Assembly (NCBI GenBank): GCA_029265615.1
Contig: JAJUIB010000001.1
Span: forward strand, 1-64,000
Reading direction: 5' to 3'
Origin: Spirochaetota bacterium
GTDB lineage: Bacteria > Spirochaetota > Spirochaetia > Treponematales > Rectinemataceae
DNA: 64,000 nt
The translations under genes and the position numbers were made by a program. Position 1 is the first letter of the stretch. Each line of letters starts with the position of its first letter. Below, one piece after another: positions 28,409-35,513 of this stretch. The notes beneath the pieces were generated by a model that saw only the letters and a program-made list of their open reading frames with translations, did no database searches and had not been told where the DNA came from.

Positions 28409-29890
28409 ATGGCTGACAAGACGAGGACAGTGTTCGGAAATCCGATATCCGAAGGGGTATGCAGGCAGGCGGAACGGGCGAAAGCGGGGTATATCCGTGA
28501 ATTCGGAAGGGATCCCGAAGGCGGCTACACCCTGGGCGTGCGCGATAATGCCGTCCTTTCCCGCCTTGGTGCGCGCGAGCTCACCGTCCGCGCGAGGTCA
28601 GAGGGCGAGGGCGGGACAGCGATGCCCTTTGACCTGGCTGCCGATGCGCGCGCCCTCGTTGTGGGTACCATCCGCATGGGCTTCGGCCATTACCGCATCT
28701 CGCTGGCGATCGCGAGTGCGGCGCGCGCTCGTGGGCTCACTCCCTACTGGTTCGACCTCCACGCCTTCTCCGACACGCCTGGCGGCAAGATAATCGCCAA
28801 ACTGAACCGCCTGTATTCGATGGGATCGCGCTGGTCGCAACGCTACCCGCTCTTTAACAAACTCTATTGGGAACCGCTTAATTCCGAGGGGTTCCGGAGA
28901 CTTTCCTACAACGCAAAGGATCAGAAGGTGGCCGAGCTTATGGCCGCTCCCTGCACGATGCTTCCGCGCGATGTACCCTATGTGGCGACTCACGCCTGGC
29001 CGGCCCAGGCGGCGATCCATGCGGGTATGACGCAGGTGGTCAACGTCATTCCTGACAACTGGCCCATGGCGCTCCACCTTGCGGAAGGCGCTGTCCACTG
29101 TGTGCAGAGTCCCTCCGCCTGGCAGGGCTATAAAATGCTCCGCGGCATGCAAGGCGACGAGATTCTCAAGCCCATGCCGCGGGGGAGCCTGTGCTATGTC
29201 GGGCACTACATCGACCACGAGCTCGTCGCCAATCTGGAAGCCGATACGATGGCCAGACTCGCCCGCGTCAGGGGCGAGGCCCCGCTCCGGGTGCTCCTCA
29301 CGCTAGGCGGGGCGGGCGCACAGCGCGAGCTTTTTGCCGCGATCATCAAGAGGCTTGCGCCTCTGGCCGAGCGGGGACAGCTTGCGCTCTTCGTCAACCT
29401 GGGCGATCACCGTTCGGCGCTTGAGGCGCTCACGCGGGAGGTGCCGGAACTTTCCCGTGCGACGCTCCACGATAGCGACTGGGCGGGCACCGAGGCCTTC
29501 GCCTGCGCGGCGCTCTCCTCCGAGGTGGCAGGCGTCCACCTTTTCTATGACCCTGACATTTTTTCCGCCGTCTACACGACGAATCTGCTCATGCGTGCAA
29601 GCGATCTCATGATTACGAAGCCGAGCGAGCTTGCCTATTACCCCGTTCCCAAGCTCCATATCCGGCGCGTTGGCGGCCACGAAGCCTGGGGCGCTATACG
29701 TTCGGCCGAAATCGGCGATGGCTCGATCGAATGCGCGACCCTGCCTGAGACGCTCGCCATGCTTACGCTCCTCATCGAGGATCGCGAGGGGCTCGTGCTT
29801 ATGAACGAGAGCATTCTGCGGGCCGCCCGCGCCGACCTGTATTCCGGCGCGTACAAGGCGGTCGATATCGCCCTGGCGCGCCGCCAGTGA
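28409..29890 (+). CDS. GT-B-fold glycosyltransferase-like protein (MGDG synthase/MurG-related)
   Basis: 493 aa. After about 85 residues comes a Rossmann-type start with TIRMGFGHYRISLAIASAAR, resembling the GxGH loop of MGDG synthases and MurG. The C-terminal half has LLTLGGAGAQRELFAAII and SDLMITKPSELAYYPVPKLH, the nucleotide-sugar-binding side of GT28-like enzymes, where usually D-x-x-I-x-K-P/S-G is found. No signal peptide is visible. The family is inferred from these loops only; donor and acceptor are unknown. A Shine-Dalgarno (GGGGGAGCG) precedes the ATG. It is followed after 27 nt by an MFS carrier of the sugar-cation type, which suggests a carbohydrate or glycolipid theme. Confidence 0.6.
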   Translation: MADKTRTVFGNPISEGVCRQAERAKAGYIREFGRDPEGGYTLGVRDNAVLSRLGARELTVRARSEGEGGTAMPFDLAADARALVVGTIRMGFGHYRISLAIASAARARGLTPYWFDLHAFSDTPGGKIIAKLNRLYSMGSRWSQRYPLFNKLYWEPLNSEGFRRLSYNAKDQKVAELMAAPCTMLPRDVPYVATHAWPAQAAIHAGMTQVVNVIPDNWPMALHLAEGAVHCVQSPSAWQGYKMLRGMQGDEILKPMPRGSLCYVGHYIDHELVANLEADTMARLARVRGEAPLRVLLTLGGAGAQRELFAAIIKRLAPLAERGQLALFVNLGDHRSALEALTREVPELSRATLHDSDWAGTEAFACAALSSEVAGVHLFYDPDIFSAVYTTNLLMRASDLMITKPSELAYYPVPKLHIRRVGGHEAWGAIRSAEIGDGSIECATLPETLAMLTLLIEDREGLVLMNESILRAARADLYSGAYKAVDIALARRQ

Positions 29891-29917
29891 CGCGCGCATC
29901 AAGCGAAGGAGAACGAG

Positions 29918-31366
29918 ATGAAGAACCCCGTACCTGTCCCGCACGGGACCGTCAAGACTCTTCCGGCAAAGTTACCCGGATGGAAGCTCGTCATTTTCGC
30001 GCTCGGTCAGCTCGGCTGGTCGCTCGCGTCCTGGAGCGTTTCGAACGCGCTTACGTTTTTCTTCCTGCCGCCTGAAAAAGCGACGACTGGTCAGTCGCTT
30101 TTTCCCGCCTTCATTTACCAGGGGGCCGTCTTCGGAGCTCTCACCATCATCGGCCTCATCAATGCAGGCGGGCGGCTCTGGGATGCGGTCACCGATCCCT
30201 GGATTGCCAACCTTTCCGACCGTTCCCGCTCAAAGCTTGGTAGGAGGCGGATATTCCTTCTCATCTCTGCCGTGCCGACAGCGCTTTTCGCACTCCTTGT
30301 GTTTGTGCCGATAGCCGATGGCGCCACACAGCTTGGGCGGACAAGCAACGCGATTTGGCTCGCGGTGACCATGACGCTCTACTACCTCTTTATTACGATG
30401 TACTGCACCCCCTACAATGCGCTCATCTCTGAACTTGGCCACAGTCCCGATGAGCGGCTCTCTATTTCGACTGCTATTTCGGTCACCTGGGCGCTGGGTT
30501 TCGCCATCGGCAATCAGACCTACGCCATCTATCCCGCTCTCGGAAAGGCGTTCGCCCTTCCGCCCGAACGCGCCTTCCAGTACACGCTCGGCGTGTTTGA
30601 AATCGTTGCGGCCCTCCTCATGCTCCTTCCCGCGCTGTTTATCGATGAGCGGAAATACGCGGAAACACACGCATCGGATGAAGGGGTGCTCGCCGCGGTT
30701 GTTTCGACCTTCAAAAACAGGGATTTTCGGAGTTTTGTGCTGTCCGATCTCCCGTACTGGGTGGCACTCAATTTCATTCAGATGGGCATCGCCTATTACA
30801 TGATCACGCTTCTCGGGCTCGACGAGTCGACACCTTCATTCCTCATGCTCGTGATGTTCGTCCTCTCCTTCCTCTTTTACGCGCCGGTGAATCTTTCCGC
30901 GCGCAAGTTCGGTAAGAAACCGGTGCTCGTCTTCGCGTTTGCCGCATTCGCGTTTGACTTCCTCCTCGTGTTTTTTCTCGGGAAGCTGCCCCTGCCCGCG
31001 ATGGCCCAGGCCTGGATCGTGGTGGTTATAGCCGCCCTCCCCATGGCGATCTTCGGCATCCTGCCGAACGTCATCGTGGCCGACGTCGCGGAAAGTCACG
31101 GCATCGAGACGGGGCAGTATAAGGCGGGCATATTCTTCGGTGCCCGCACTTTTATGATGAAGATGGGCATCGCGCTTGCAAACCTGCTCTTCCCCTCGCT
31201 ACTTCTCCTTGGTAAAAGCGCGGAAAATCCCTTGGGCATCCGTGCCTCGGCGCTCTGCGCGCTCGGCTTCTGCGTACTTGGCCTTGCGCTCTTCCTCCGC
31301 TATGACGAAAAGCGCGTTCTTGCAGTGCTTGCAACCAAAGAGGGAGGCAATACACCGCGCCCCTAG
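29918..31366 (+). CDS. MFS carrier, GPH sugar:cation symporter type
   Basis: 482 aa, 12 predicted transmembrane segments. GGRLWDAVTDPWIANLSDRS (about residues 84-103) is the MelB/GPH signature, where Asp residues coordinate the coupling cation. TMYCTPYNALISEL and the second-half motif VADVAESHGIETGQYKAGIFF agree. It would import a sugar or glycoside with H+ or Na+. The ATG follows AAGGAGAACGAG. Operon partner: the GT-B-like protein upstream. The gene has ordinary base composition for the window. Confidence 0.85.
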   Translation: MKNPVPVPHGTVKTLPAKLPGWKLVIFALGQLGWSLASWSVSNALTFFFLPPEKATTGQSLFPAFIYQGAVFGALTIIGLINAGGRLWDAVTDPWIANLSDRSRSKLGRRRIFLLISAVPTALFALLVFVPIADGATQLGRTSNAIWLAVTMTLYYLFITMYCTPYNALISELGHSPDERLSISTAISVTWALGFAIGNQTYAIYPALGKAFALPPERAFQYTLGVFEIVAALLMLLPALFIDERKYAETHASDEGVLAAVVSTFKNRDFRSFVLSDLPYWVALNFIQMGIAYYMITLLGLDESTPSFLMLVMFVLSFLFYAPVNLSARKFGKKPVLVFAFAAFAFDFLLVFFLGKLPLPAMAQAWIVVVIAALPMAIFGILPNVIVADVAESHGIETGQYKAGIFFGARTFMMKMGIALANLLFPSLLLLGKSAENPLGIRASALCALGFCVLGLALFLRYDEKRVLAVLATKEGGNTPRP

Positions 31367-31611: not shown

Positions 31612-32283
31612 GTGAATACGTTCCGGGTTTTGGAGATCAAGAAGAGCGTTTACGAGGGGAATGACGCGCGCGCGGCGGCGCTCAGAGCCGAACTCAAGCG
31701 CCGGGGACTGTTCCTCCTCAATCTCATGTCGTCACCGGGGGCGGGAAAGACGACGACCTTGCTTCGCACCATAGACGCACTCGGGGCGGAGTTGCGGATG
31801 GGCGTACTCGAAGCCGACCTTGATTCCGACGTCGATGCGCGCGCCATTGCGCCGCGCGGCGTCAAGGTCATTCAACTTCACTCAGGCGGCATGTGCCACC
31901 TCGACGCTGACATGACGCGGCAGGGCCTTGAAGGACTGGGCACCGAGGGGCTCGATCTTGTCGTGCTCGAAAACATCGGCAACCTCATTTGCACGGCGGA
32001 TTTCGACACGGGTGCCTCCCGGAATGCGATGATCCTGTCGGTTCCGGAGGGCGATGACAAGCCGCTTAAGTATCCGCATATGTTCTCGGTGGTCGACGCT
32101 GTCCTCGTCAACAAGATCGACGCCATGGACTTTTTCGACTTCGACCTTGAGAAATTCACAAAGCGGGTGAGAGAACTCAATCCGCGCGCGCGGATCATGC
32201 CGATCTCCGCCAAGACGGGCGAGGGGATTGCGGCTTGGGCGGAGTGGCTACGCGCCGAAGTGCGCGGCTGGAAAGAAGCATAA
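31612..32283 (+). CDS. hypB: HypB, nickel-insertion GTPase
   Basis: 223 aa. G1 loop SSPGAGKTTTL near residue 39, the metal-site motif HSGGMCHLDADM near 91 (Cys-His pair at the dimer interface), VLENIGNL, VNKID (G4) near 177 and SAKTGEG (G5). HypB hydrolyses GTP while passing nickel to a target enzyme, with HypA. The N-terminal His-rich stretch and CxxCGC motif of some HypB proteins are absent, so it probably does not store nickel. The start is a GTG with GGGGGGAGGG upstream. It is the first gene of a three-gene run with the Fe-S flavoprotein and hypA. Confidence 0.93.
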   Translation: MNTFRVLEIKKSVYEGNDARAAALRAELKRRGLFLLNLMSSPGAGKTTTLLRTIDALGAELRMGVLEADLDSDVDARAIAPRGVKVIQLHSGGMCHLDADMTRQGLEGLGTEGLDLVVLENIGNLICTADFDTGASRNAMILSVPEGDDKPLKYPHMFSVVDAVLVNKIDAMDFFDFDLEKFTKRVRELNPRARIMPISAKTGEGIAAWAEWLRAEVRGWKEA

Positions 32284-32318
32284 GCGACGGTTCAACCACG
32301 GATACCGAGGAGACGGAT

Positions 32319-35009
32319 ATGGTCAAGGAGAAGGTGCTTGATTATGCGAACAAGATTTCGCGCACCAAACGCGGCGCAAAGGACGAAATAAAGCCCGAGT
32401 ATCCCGAATACCGGATACTTGAGCCCGTCGTCACCGAAGAGATGGCCGAGGTCGGACTCTGCCTTGAGCTCCGCGTGCCGCAGAGCGCGGCCGAGGTCGC
32501 GGCCAAGTGCGGGAAGAGTGTCGAAGAGACCGAAAAACTCCTCTGGGAGCTTGCGATGGCGGGCGCCGCCTTCGTGAACAAGATCGACGGTGTTGATAAG
32601 TATTGGCACGAGATTTGGGTCCCTGGCCACATGGAAATGATGGTCAACAACAAGGAGAATGTCCGAAAATACCCCGTTATCGCGGAGTGCTTCGACCTCT
32701 ATGGCAAGCGCCGCGGCCCCATGGGTGCCGGAAAGTTCCCCGTCGGCCTTGGACCCATGCGCGTAATCCCTATAGAAAAGGCCATCCAGGGAGAAACGCG
32801 GCGCGCTTCCTACGAAGAGGTCTCGAAATACCTCAACGACAACACGGTCTTCTCCGTTTCCGACTGCTCCTGCCGAACCTCGCGGGCGGCGCTCGGTGAA
32901 GGTTGCGGGCACCTCAAAGAAGACATGTGCATCCAGATGGGGCATGCGGCCGAGTACTACATCCGCACGGGCCGCGGCCGCGCAATCACCCGCGAGGAAG
33001 CCTTCGAGATCATCCGCCGCGCCGAAGAGAACGGCCTCATGCATTCGATCCCCAATCTCGATGGCGAAGGCAAGACCCACGCGATCTGCAATTGCTGCGG
33101 CTGCGGTTGCTTCGCCATGCGCCTTGCGAACGCATGGACCAATCCCGACATCGTGCGCTCGAACTATGTCTCGAAGGTCGATGCGGAAAAGTGTGTCGCC
33201 TGCGGTGAATGCGTCGAAAACTGTCCGACGAACGCCCTCAAACTCGGCAAAAAGCTCTGCGCCGAGGCACCGCTAAAGATCATTCGCCGCGAGCTCCCCT
33301 ACGACACCGAGTGGGGACCCGACAAGTGGAACTATGAGTATCGCACGAACCGCCGCGTCGTGCTCGACTCAGGCTCGAGTCCCTGCAAGGCTGAGTGCCC
33401 GGCACACATCGGCATCCAGGGCTATATCAAGCTTGCGAGCCAAGGCAAGTACCGCGAAGCCCTCGAGCTTATCAAGAAGGAGAACCCTTTCCCTGCCGTC
33501 TGTGGCCGTATCTGCCCGCGGAAGTGCGAGTCCGCCTGTACGCGCGGCGATCTTGACGATCCCGTGGCGATCGACGAGATCAAGAAGTTCATCGCAGAGC
33601 AGGATCTTGATGCGAAGTACCGCTATGTGCCCCGCAAGCGGCACGAGTATGGCAAAAAGATAGCCGTGGTCGGCGCCGGACCCTCCGGCCTGTCTTGTGC
33701 CTTCTTCCTCGCGCAAGACGGCTACAAGGTCACCGTGTTTGAGCGCGAGAAGACGCTCGGCGGCATGCTCGCCCTCGGCATTCCCGCGTTCCGCCTTGAG
33801 AAGGACGTTGTCGCCGCGGAGATCGATGTCCTCCGCGAGCTCGGTGTCGAGTTCAAGACGGGCGTCGAGGTTGGTAAGGATGTTTCGCTTGCCGAGCTTA
33901 GGCGGCAGGGCTTCGAGGCTTTCTATCTCGCGATCGGCGCCCGTGCCGGCCGAAAGCTCGGCCTTGAGGGAGAGTCGGCTGAAGGGGTGATGACTGGTGT
34001 CGACTTCCTCCGCCGCGTCAATCTTGGCGAGGTGGTCAGGTTGCCGGCCAGGGTTGTCGTGATTGGCGGCGGCAATGTTGCGATCGATGTCGCTCGGACG
34101 GCGAAGCGTGTTGGCGGTGATGCGGTCACGATGCTTTGCCTTGAAAGCAGGCCCGAGATGCCGGCCCTTCCCGAAGAGATCGATGAGGCGCTTGCCGAGG
34201 GTATCGTAATCGACAACTCCTGGGGACCCAAGCGCATCATCGTGGAAGACGGCCGTGTCACCGGGGTCGAGTTCAAGAAGTGTGTGTCGGCGTTTGACGC
34301 CGAAAAGCGCTTTAACCCCCGCTATGACGAGACGGTGACGAAGGTTGTCGAAGCCGATTGCGTTCTCCTTTCGGTCGGTCAGACAATCGAGTGGGGCGGA
34401 CTCCTTGCGGATAGCAAGGTCGAGCTCAATCGCAACGGAACGGTCAAGGCCGACCCCTTCACCCTGCAGACAGCCGAACCCGACGTGTTCGCAGGCGGAG
34501 ATGCGCTCACGGGGCCGAAATTTGCGATCGATGCTATCGCGCTCGGAAAAGAGGCGGCTATCTCGATCCACCGTTTCGTCCAGCCTGGGCAGAGCCTTGT
34601 CCTCGGCCGAATCAAGCGCGACTACCGCGCCTTTGACAAGAGCGGTCTTGACTTGGGCGGCTATGATCGAATGCCCCGCCAGTCTGCGGGACACGCCGCG
34701 TCGGGCGGCGACGCCTTCCGCGATCCACGAGGAACCTTCACCGAGGAGCAGGTTAAAAAGGAGACCGAGCGCTGCCTCTCCTGCGGCGCGACCGTGGTTG
34801 ACGAATTCATGTGCCTCGGCTGCGGCGCTTGTACGCTCAAATGCAAGTTCGACGCCATCAGCTTGGTCCGTAAGTATGACAAAGCTGGCAAGGACCTTCC
34901 CGAGGTCAAGCCCGAGGTTGTGAAATACGTGCTCAAGCGGACGGTGCGGATCGCTCTCAAGAAGCCTGTCAAGGCGCTTCGCGCCGCGTTCTCTCGCGCT
35001 TCCAACTAA
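32319..35009 (+). CDS. Large Fe-S flavoprotein: CSCR/ferredoxin module fused to GltD-like NAD(P)H oxidoreductase
   Basis: 896 aa, cytoplasmic. Residues 1-175 contain a winged-helix-like segment. About 180-265 hold a cysteine-rich domain (SDCSCRTS, CGHLKEDMC, CNCCGCGC). A ferredoxin motif CVACGECVENCPTNA lies near 293. The GltD-type N-domain Fe-S region (PCKAECPAH, CGRICPRKCESAC) spans about 354-408. FAD loop VVGAGPSGLSCAF is near 450, the NAD(P)-binding VVIGGGNVAIDVART near 580 and FAD-closing DVFAGGDALTGP near 722. The C-terminus has CLSCGA and CLGCGACTLKC. Such proteins move electrons between NAD(P)H and ferredoxin-like partners. The real partner is unknown, but its place between hypB and hypA suggests a nickel enzyme. 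The ATG at 32319 has GAGGAG upstream. Confidence 0.85.
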   Translation: MVKEKVLDYANKISRTKRGAKDEIKPEYPEYRILEPVVTEEMAEVGLCLELRVPQSAAEVAAKCGKSVEETEKLLWELAMAGAAFVNKIDGVDKYWHEIWVPGHMEMMVNNKENVRKYPVIAECFDLYGKRRGPMGAGKFPVGLGPMRVIPIEKAIQGETRRASYEEVSKYLNDNTVFSVSDCSCRTSRAALGEGCGHLKEDMCIQMGHAAEYYIRTGRGRAITREEAFEIIRRAEENGLMHSIPNLDGEGKTHAICNCCGCGCFAMRLANAWTNPDIVRSNYVSKVDAEKCVACGECVENCPTNALKLGKKLCAEAPLKIIRRELPYDTEWGPDKWNYEYRTNRRVVLDSGSSPCKAECPAHIGIQGYIKLASQGKYREALELIKKENPFPAVCGRICPRKCESACTRGDLDDPVAIDEIKKFIAEQDLDAKYRYVPRKRHEYGKKIAVVGAGPSGLSCAFFLAQDGYKVTVFEREKTLGGMLALGIPAFRLEKDVVAAEIDVLRELGVEFKTGVEVGKDVSLAELRRQGFEAFYLAIGARAGRKLGLEGESAEGVMTGVDFLRRVNLGEVVRLPARVVVIGGGNVAIDVARTAKRVGGDAVTMLCLESRPEMPALPEEIDEALAEGIVIDNSWGPKRIIVEDGRVTGVEFKKCVSAFDAEKRFNPRYDETVTKVVEADCVLLSVGQTIEWGGLLADSKVELNRNGTVKADPFTLQTAEPDVFAGGDALTGPKFAIDAIALGKEAAISIHRFVQPGQSLVLGRIKRDYRAFDKSGLDLGGYDRMPRQSAGHAASGGDAFRDPRGTFTEEQVKKETERCLSCGATVVDEFMCLGCGACTLKCKFDAISLVRKYDKAGKDLPEVKPEVVKYVLKRTVRIALKKPVKALRAAFSRASN

Positions 35010-35097
35010 AGGGCTAAGGGGGCGGGGCGCAATCTAGCGCCTTGCCCCGCGGCGCCTGATGGTGCCGTATCGAAGCGGGCGCTTGTGAGGTGCGACG

Positions 35098-35439
35098 GTG
35101 CATGAGTTAGGCGTTGTCATTGAAGTCGTCAAGACGGTTGAGGAATTTGTGCGCGCGAACGGCCTTTCCACGGTCGATACGATAGTCCTCCAGATCGGCG
35201 AACTTTCGTCGATGATCCCCAAGTACATCGAGGATTGCTTTCCCGTGGCGGTCTCTGAGACCATGCTGGAGGCGACCAAGCTCCGCATCGAAGTGCTTCC
35301 GGGCAACGCGCGCTGTACCTCCTGCGGCAAGGTCTATGGCGTTCTTGCAAACGAAGGGCGTTGTCCCGCCTGTGGCGCGCGGGGCGGTGAGCTACTTTCG
35401 GGTAAGGAATTTCTTATAAAGGAAATCGTCGCCTGCTGA
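35098..35439 (+). CDS. hypA: HypA, nickel metallochaperone
   Basis: 113 aa. Starting at the GTG gives Met-His-Glu, the MHE nickel-binding N-terminus required in HypA. The zinc site is intact (CTSCGK near 74 and CPAC near 91). HypA receives nickel and delivers it, with HypB, to [NiFe]-hydrogenase precursors. No hydrogenase structural gene or other hyp gene is in the window. It lies 88 nt after the Fe-S flavoprotein gene; that gap contains a GC-rich inverted repeat (about 35021-35050) without a T-run. Followed by a terminator. Confidence 0.95.
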   Translation: MHELGVVIEVVKTVEEFVRANGLSTVDTIVLQIGELSSMIPKYIEDCFPVAVSETMLEATKLRIEVLPGNARCTSCGKVYGVLANEGRCPACGARGGELLSGKEFLIKEIVAC

Positions 35440-35479
35440 GACTGCCGTCGCTTTCCGTTACGCAGTGAGCGCTTAAGGA

Positions 35480-35513
35480 AACAGCCGTGGCATCCGCCGC
35501 GGCTGTTTTATTT
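35480..35513 (+). terminator. Rho-independent terminator after hypA
   Basis: 11-bp stem AACAGCCGTGG / CCGCGGCTGTT (one G-T pair), 6-nt loop, then TTTTATTT. It overlaps the last bases of the convergent MFS gene. Confidence 0.85.

Follow-up and report, generated by a model that had tools for sequence, protein, structure and literature searches.

We examined a cassette of three genes, hypB, an iron-sulfur (Fe-S) flavoprotein gene and hypA, in the genome of a bacterium of the Spirochaetota (assembly GCA_029265615.1, hereafter the host genome or G000). The cassette lies within 31612-35439 of the window, by which we mean the whole stretch of 64,000 nucleotides that was analyzed (positions 1-64,000 of contig JAJUIB010000001.1). 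An initial annotation of the window had reported these genes as a nickel-chaperone cassette without a hydrogenase. Profile matches and translation of the reading frames show that it placed the cassette correctly, and that the start of the flavoprotein (FP) is better set at the ATG at 32319. The features are the following.

31612..32283, + strand: hypB, GTPase nickel metallochaperone, 223 amino acids, GTG start (TIGR00073, PF02492, C95-H96, C127)
32319..35009, + strand: FP, IsrA-like NAD(P)H/FAD Fe-S oxidoreductase, 896 amino acids, ATG start (PF14691, PF07992, Fer4, translation)
32319..33167 (end approximate), + strand: N-terminal domain (N-domain) of FP, a winged helix followed by a Cys-rich site, without a Pfam family
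35098..35439, + strand: hypA, nickel metallochaperone, 113 amino acids, GTG start (PF01155, H2-E3, two CxxC motifs)
35478..35509, + strand: terminator-like hairpin 3' of hypA, a consensus match only

The gap between hypB and FP is 35 bases and that between FP and hypA is 88 bases, and the three genes form one cassette. The hairpin is among six terminator-like patterns in the region, where 4.9 would be expected from shuffled sequences. In profile searches, HypB matches TIGR00073 with 228 bits (cut-off 121) and PF02492 with 65 bits, and it keeps the metal motifs C95-H96 and C127. HypA matches PF01155 with 101 bits (cut-off 28.9), does not reach the threshold of TIGR00100, the model for hydrogenase systems (76 vs 88 bits), and keeps H2-E3 and two CxxC motifs. 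These metal motifs are the ones named by Kronen et al. (2023, PMC10134865).

FP matches PF14691 (E 9e-24), the FAD/NAD(P) domain PF07992 (E 5e-32) and Fer4. Its parts are arranged in the order Pfam-less N-terminal region, Fer4 site, dihydropyrimidine-dehydrogenase domain II, FAD/NAD(P) domain and C-terminal Fe-S site. An alignment gives 51-80% identity to 69 FPs of other loci, and among the GltD/GltA models listed FP reaches none of the curated thresholds (for example, 293 vs 472 bits for TIGR01316). The full-length structural model has a mean pLDDT of 88 and a pTM of 0.87, and its GltD half is closest to NfnA of NfnABC (Z 43.9, 476 residues, rmsd 2.1), followed by StnABC (Z 42.6). This likeness is limited to residues ~352-850, and the matches of solved GltD- and Nfn-type chains to FP start at 349 or later, which bears out the initial remark that the N-terminal Cys-rich domain is uncommon in GltD-type proteins. 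Residues 1-296 (read from 32313) match nothing in Pfam at a threshold as loose as E 10, and slices of two relatives give Fer4 and weak winged-helix matches. The model of the N-domain has a mean pLDDT of 81 and a winged helix at ~21-108. Foldseek finds no match for it in the PDB at E <= 0.001; the VIA rows, which lie mostly on the winged helix (residues ~5-111), hardly test the Cys-rich part. In a PDB profile search, the matches among the 60 of 129 rows shown are confined to the Fer4 part.

The initial annotation counted about five Fe-S motifs in FP, and this agrees with four canonical 4Fe-4S sites, assigned following PMC10134865, together with the N-terminal Cys-rich site. Two of the 4Fe-4S sites, C294/297/300/304 and C821/824/834/837/840/844, flank the GltD core, one on each side, and are invariant in 87 FPs (alignment cysteines 294-844 are counted from 32313; subtract 2 for numbering from the Met). 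Numbered from the Met, the Cys-rich site comprises Cys183, 185, 196, 204, 257, 259, 260, 262 and 264, of which 260 and 262 are present in 86 of the 87 FPs and the other seven are invariant. The site includes two invariant CxC motifs, C183xC185 and C257xC259, whose counterparts in IsrA, C180xC182 and C254xC256, have been proposed to form cluster V (PMC10134865). A divergent FP clade (L060, L035-L041) has CNCN[VI]NVC in place of CNCCGC[SG]C, as seen in L060, L035, L036 and L038; HypB still adjoins FP in this clade.

In the host genome (2.70 Mb in 47 contigs, 99.88% complete), HypA and FP each occur once, and there is a single clear HypB, next to a second, weak HypB match (31% identity over 164 residues, E 2e-4). 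Profile searches of this genome give no match for PF00374 (the NiFe large subunit), HypD, urease alpha (PF00449) or LarC. The lack of a hydrogenase, first noted for the window, thus extends to the genome as far as PF00374 and HypD are concerned (the searches did not include HypC, HypE, HypF or FeFe hydrogenase). The initial annotation had also reasoned that a complete hyp operon elsewhere with its own hypA and hypB would make the present genes simple duplicates; no such operon came to light, and the genome has one HypA and no HypD match. We rejected carbon monoxide dehydrogenase (CODH) as a client, since the sole PF03063 (Prismane) match is a hydroxylamine reductase (690 bits, cut-off 361) that reaches 31 bits with the CODH model (cut-off 478).

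A panel of 38 genomes, 32 with FP and six of a ferredoxin type without FP that is described below, was searched for the same clients. HypD is found in none of the 38, and 13 of the 32 FP-bearing genomes have no tested nickel client (G000, G031, G034, G051, G054, G061, G073, G082, G105, G114, G125, G128 and G132). Weak Lar_N matches in six of these 13 (G000, G051, G054, G114, G128 and G132) were not counted. Left out of the 13 were G003 and G008 (PF00374), G137 and G159 (urease), G117 and G191 (weak urease-alpha matches), ten genomes with LarC, G002 (strong LarA), and G001 and G129 (Prismane frames of at least 600 amino acids). Outside G000, PF03063 matches were judged by frame length only, a frame of fewer than 600 amino acids being read as not CooS; we take CooS to be ~630 amino acids long, which makes such a frame too short.

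We compared the surroundings of FP in 80 named loci, the best-scoring of at least 564 confirmed FP relatives, which were picked by FP sequence. By tblastn, both hypB and hypA lie near FP in 67 of these loci, hypB alone in four, hypA alone in two and neither in seven; several of the loci without hypA and/or hypB lie near contig ends. The order hypB-FP-hypA is found in 63 of the 67 two-gene loci (63 of 80 overall), from several phyla, and the association is more than chance. Among 255 proteins encoded no more than two genes away from a cassette, DUF5692 is the commonest non-Hyp neighbor (34 proteins), and there are 16 GntR-type proteins, nine flavin amine-oxidase-like proteins and seven CbiM nickel/cobalt transporters. 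For clade-9 relatives of IsrA, hypA, hypB and DUF5692 have been reported as neighbors, and among 988 homologues hypA lies beside the gene in 73% and hypB in 56% (PMC10134865). Oleate hydratase is reported to adjoin a homologue in A. woodii (PMC10134865) and is absent from the 25 commonest Pfam families of 128 and 127 neighbor proteins, rarer families not being shown. A relative of the same genus (L013, L042; G001:C462) has two tandem FP genes with hypB between them.

The linkage is also seen in the gene content of 194 relatives. A genome was scored as having FP if the N-domain matched at E < 1e-50 (33 genomes), to which we added G054, which has a C-terminal FP fragment beside HypA; at E 0.001 the N-domain matches 85 of the 194, including distant ferredoxins. 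HypA exceeds its cut-off in 44 genomes, namely 33 of 34 FP-bearing genomes and 11 of the 160 that lack FP (Fisher p 1e-26, kinship ignored). The lone FP genome without HypA is G129, where the N-domain match is in two pieces in separate frames (G129:C1:2227931-2228918); the cassette there looks to be decaying.

Six of the 11 genomes with HypA and without FP (G032, G040, G048, G083, G089 and G154) have a ferredoxin of ~390-460 amino acids that carries the N-domain of FP. HypA, HypB and the ferredoxin share a contig in five of the six and are side by side in four. The loci with such ferredoxins near HypA and HypB are L142:7408-11517, L144:7557-11138, L145:1-2997, L146:7913-10129, L143:1256-7080 and L150/L151. 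In G089, ~1.7 kb separates HypB from the ferredoxin, and in G040 the ferredoxin (L151) and HypB (L150) are on different contigs. G089, counted here as ferredoxin type, also has a PF00374 match below the cut-off. In one FP genome, G002, HypA adjoins a diverged ferredoxin (L147). Since this second type of HypA/HypB-linked protein has no more than the N-terminal part in common with FP, the sequences point to the N-domain as the client part. Kronen et al. saw no link to HypA/HypB for the group to which the isr-operon ferredoxin belongs, which may or may not be the present group.

The other five of the 11 genomes (G004, G005, G010, G014 and G030) have a PF00374 protein. Nine proteins exceed the PF00374 cut-off, with partial matches to the first 69-70 of 508 positions. 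Five of the nine (from G004, G008, G014, G017 and G030) were examined, and all are of the complex-I-49-kDa/group-4 type: PF00346 is stronger than PF00374, NuoD models are below cut-off, and a CxxC near the N-terminus and another at the C-terminus are kept. We take these two CxxC positions to be the nickel-binding sites of NiFe hydrogenases. These large subunits are followed by hypA and hypB (L152:7550-8686, L154:10223-11362, L155:9875-11032, L159:9891-11000 and L160:2639-3778). Two of the nine genomes, G003 and G008 (the genome of L159), were covered by the HypD search, and neither has HypD. HypA and HypB may therefore serve a nickel site without HypD-made ligands here, or these proteins may not be ordinary hydrogenases. 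The group is best described as group-4-type large-subunit-like proteins, not simply NiFe hydrogenases, and it leaves the odds of the readings weighed below unchanged.

A maximum likelihood (ML) tree of 38 HypB proteins was drawn, in which the client is the protein linked to each HypB. The rows fall in three sets: nine group-4-linked (support 100/99), six ferredoxin-linked (99/94) and 23 FP-linked, the last with weak support (79/13). The HypB of the window groups with the other FP-linked HypBs. On this tree HypB separates by client, FP, ferredoxin or group-4-type protein, with the caveat that long branches meet and that the group-4-linked rows all come from relatives of one order.

The seven cysteines that are invariant in FPs are likewise invariant in the stand-alone N-domain ferredoxins. 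When ten Cys positions are considered, 86 of 87 FPs have nine and one has seven, all seven HypA-linked ferredoxins have nine, and 21 of 22 unlinked ferredoxins keep all ten, the exception (L162) coming from a genome with HypA. The linked ferredoxins include L151 (from G040, with HypB on the other contig) and L147a, which has a very long branch. The cysteine is missing at different positions in the HypA-linked ferredoxins and in FP. Because ten-Cys ferredoxins are also found in genomes with HypA, and because the linked groups are few independent lineages, the missing tenth cysteine is a lead only.

Other lineages offer a lead on the substrate. In eight clostridial FP loci a FAD protein of ~420 amino acids lies upstream of hypB, and one of ~430 amino acids lies beside HypA in the ferredoxin-type Spirochaetes G032, G040 and G048. 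In a comparison of one representative of each with solved structures, the best match of both was by far PDB 2b9w (E 1e-61 and 7e-54), and the next-best structures reached E 1e-7 and 3e-6. We take PDB 2b9w, which is listed as a "putative aminooxidase", to be the polyunsaturated fatty acid (PUFA) isomerase PAI of P. acnes. The P. acnes isomerase is described as converting linoleic acid to trans-10, cis-12 conjugated linoleic acid, a conjugated diene (PMC13365329). An isomerase homologue (cluster 9) occurs in nine of the 80 named loci and within three genes of FP in eight. At E 1e-15 the isomerase profile (A5) matches five of the 194 relatives, four of them (G032, G040, G048 and G083) among the six ferredoxin-type genomes; three of these four are of one genus, and the match in G083 is a contig-end fragment. 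The fifth, G059, has neither FP nor HypA. The isomerase-like FAD protein is near the HypA/HypB ferredoxins in L142, L144 and L150, with a fragment in L145. None of the five matching genomes has FP, and on this search, in which nine first-look candidates per genome were scored, we rejected the isomerase as a general FP partner in these Spirochaetes. Together with the proposed action of IsrA on a conjugated diene, the isomerase neighbors suggest isomerization followed by reduction, with conjugated fatty acids as candidate substrates at the loci that bear the isomerase.

The explanation that we favor, with moderate confidence, is that the cassette encodes one IsrA-like enzyme, a NAD(P)H-driven C=C reductase that is probably nickel-dependent, together with a private nickel-loading pair. 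FP is probably the client of HypA and HypB. The initial annotation offered two readings, one in which the chaperones serve a distant nickel enzyme that passes its electrons through the flavoprotein and one in which HypA and HypB have been recruited to another nickel system. The second fits better, because our searches for other clients turned up none and because FP travels with HypA and HypB, and the first loses ground. The family resemblance, gene linkage, lack of a match for the tested clients, HypB grouping and conserved cysteines are results of computation, and beyond them we infer nickel in FP, an electron route and a reaction. NAD(P)H would reduce FAD in the GltD/Nfn-like half of FP, and from FAD the electrons would travel along the four 4Fe-4S clusters and reach a metal site formed by the conserved N-terminal cysteines. 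This site would reduce a C=C bond, probably of a conjugated diene or another unactivated alkene, so that FP would work as an electron sink. HypB, a GTPase, and HypA would deliver the nickel to the N-terminal site.

Several points weigh against this explanation. The 80 loci were chosen by FP sequence as the best-scoring, and they are mostly close in kind. The same Cys site, with one cysteine more, occurs in ferredoxins of seven genomes without a HypA over the cut-off; one of the seven, G011, has a HypA match below it. Since ferredoxins keep the site in these genomes, Cys conservation alone is no argument for nickel, and the site as such needs no HypA or HypB. The host genome has a LarA-like protein (L185:636-1955, on G000:C1) with a weak Lar_N match (E 2e-11) and has no LarC match; we did not count the protein as a nickel client. 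The negative result for other clients does not extend to acetyl-CoA synthase, Ni glyoxalase, Ni superoxide dismutase (Ni-SOD) or acireductone dioxygenase, which were not searched for. No isomerase was found at E 1e-15 in FP-bearing relatives or in G000 (nine candidates scored per genome; nine of 19 in G000), so the diene reading derives from IsrA and from other lineages, and the isomerase link does not reveal what the FP of the window reduces. The presence of nickel in clade-9 proteins is so far a proposal, and HypA and HypB could serve another metal.

The strongest alternative, which we consider unlikely, is that FP holds only Fe-S clusters and flavin and that HypA and HypB are an inherited or a zinc/cobalt-handling pair that travels along. 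The ferredoxins that keep the Cys site in genomes without a HypA over the cut-off speak for it, as do the 13 of 80 loci in which one or both hyp genes went undetected, several of these near contig ends. The conservation of the cassette order across phyla, the co-occurrence of HypA and FP with a single, apparently decaying exception, and the grouping of HypB by client all argue against it. It is still less probable that HypA and HypB load some other nickel protein outside our profile searches, to which FP feeds electrons. Those searches did not cover every nickel enzyme, and G000 has a LarA-like protein; however, G000 has no match for a NiFe large subunit, HypD, urease or LarC, its Prismane protein is a hydroxylamine reductase, and the 13 FP-bearing panel genomes without a tested client (Prismane judged by frame length) would all have to contain an untested enzyme. 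Very improbable, despite the closeness of the GltD half to NfnABC and StnABC, is that FP acts as an electron-bifurcating transhydrogenase of the Nfn/Stn kind, or as a similar partner, and reduces no organic substrate itself, as the likeness spans only residues ~352-850, the scanned neighbors include no partner subunits, and the related IsrA is isoprene-induced and is proposed to reduce isoprene (PMC10134865).

Returning to FP as a nickel-dependent reductase, we put forward one tentative and rather doubtful extension. FP and the N-domain ferredoxins may be two branches of a new class of nickel enzyme that hydrogenates conjugated C=C bonds, each with its own HypB lineage, in which the missing cysteine would open a coordination site for nickel; with an adjoining PAI-type isomerase, they would carry out anaerobic PUFA biohydrogenation by isomerizing the substrate to a conjugated diene and then reducing it. 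Of the open-licence titles listed, none other than PMC10134865 ties HypA/HypB to biohydrogenation or conjugated linoleic acid. Should FP prove to be a nickel enzyme, a widespread anaerobic reductase would join the few nickel enzymes known, and HypA/HypB could no longer be taken as a sign of a hydrogenase or urease. Genomes like G000, with no other client among those searched, make the nickel question testable, since in such a cell any effect of nickel or of deleting hypA/hypB would be expected to run through FP. Isomerase neighbors, if they belong to the same pathway as FP, offer a concrete substrate for other lineages.

Directly upstream of the cassette, at 28505-31366 of the window, lie a DUF6937-DUF6938 gene and then a GPH-type symporter gene, and a major facilitator superfamily (MFS) gene lies downstream on the opposite strand in profile scans. 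The adjoining genes in these scans encode transporters, a TetR regulator and a DUF protein, with no partner subunits among them. DUF6937-DUF6938, the GPH symporter and the MFS protein are not recurrent FP neighbors among the 25 commonest Pfam families of neighbor proteins.

The cassette can be compared with several known systems. It shares with NiFe-hydrogenase maturation the HypA and HypB families and their metal motifs, and it differs in that G000 has neither HypD nor a large-subunit match and in that its HypB stands apart from the group-4-linked HypB of relatives. Like NfnA/StnA and GltD, FP has Fe-S clusters and a FAD and NAD(P) fold over residues ~352-850, whereas the matches to those proteins stop short of its N-terminal Cys-rich domain. 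Homologues of PAI lie upstream of hypB in some clostridial FP loci and beside HypA in ferredoxin-type Spirochaetes, and none was found in G000 among the nine of 19 candidates scored. The closest resemblance is to IsrA, the putative isoprene reductase of the acetogen Acetobacterium wieringae, an isoprene-induced protein of 901 amino acids (PMC10134865). FP shares with IsrA and clade 9 a length of ~900 amino acids, the domain order and two CxC motifs in a domain-less N-terminal region, and it has the clade-9 traits of a dihydropyrimidine dehydrogenase domain II and a FAD/NAD(P) domain with two flanking 4Fe-4S sites. Its locus likewise has hypA and hypB as neighbors and no NiFe hydrogenase. Given the corresponding CxC motifs and the same domain order, FP resembles the IsrA-like clade 9 kind, an assignment that follows the published description. 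We do not place it with the isoprene-reducing operon, because the isr operon has five genes, including a second hypA and a 4Fe-4S ferredoxin, whereas the cassette here has three and the genome one HypA. A 26-residue insertion at 756-782 is a further mark of the isoprene reductase. Kronen et al. pointed out that hypCDEF and a NiFe hydrogenase are lacking and suggested that six cysteines of the N-terminal domain form the nickel site (PMC10134865). The cassette is real and well conserved, it is already described in kind, and the proposal of FP as nickel client is already in print. What is new here is a host without another tested nickel client, the grouping of HypB by client, and a second type of HypA/HypB-linked protein.

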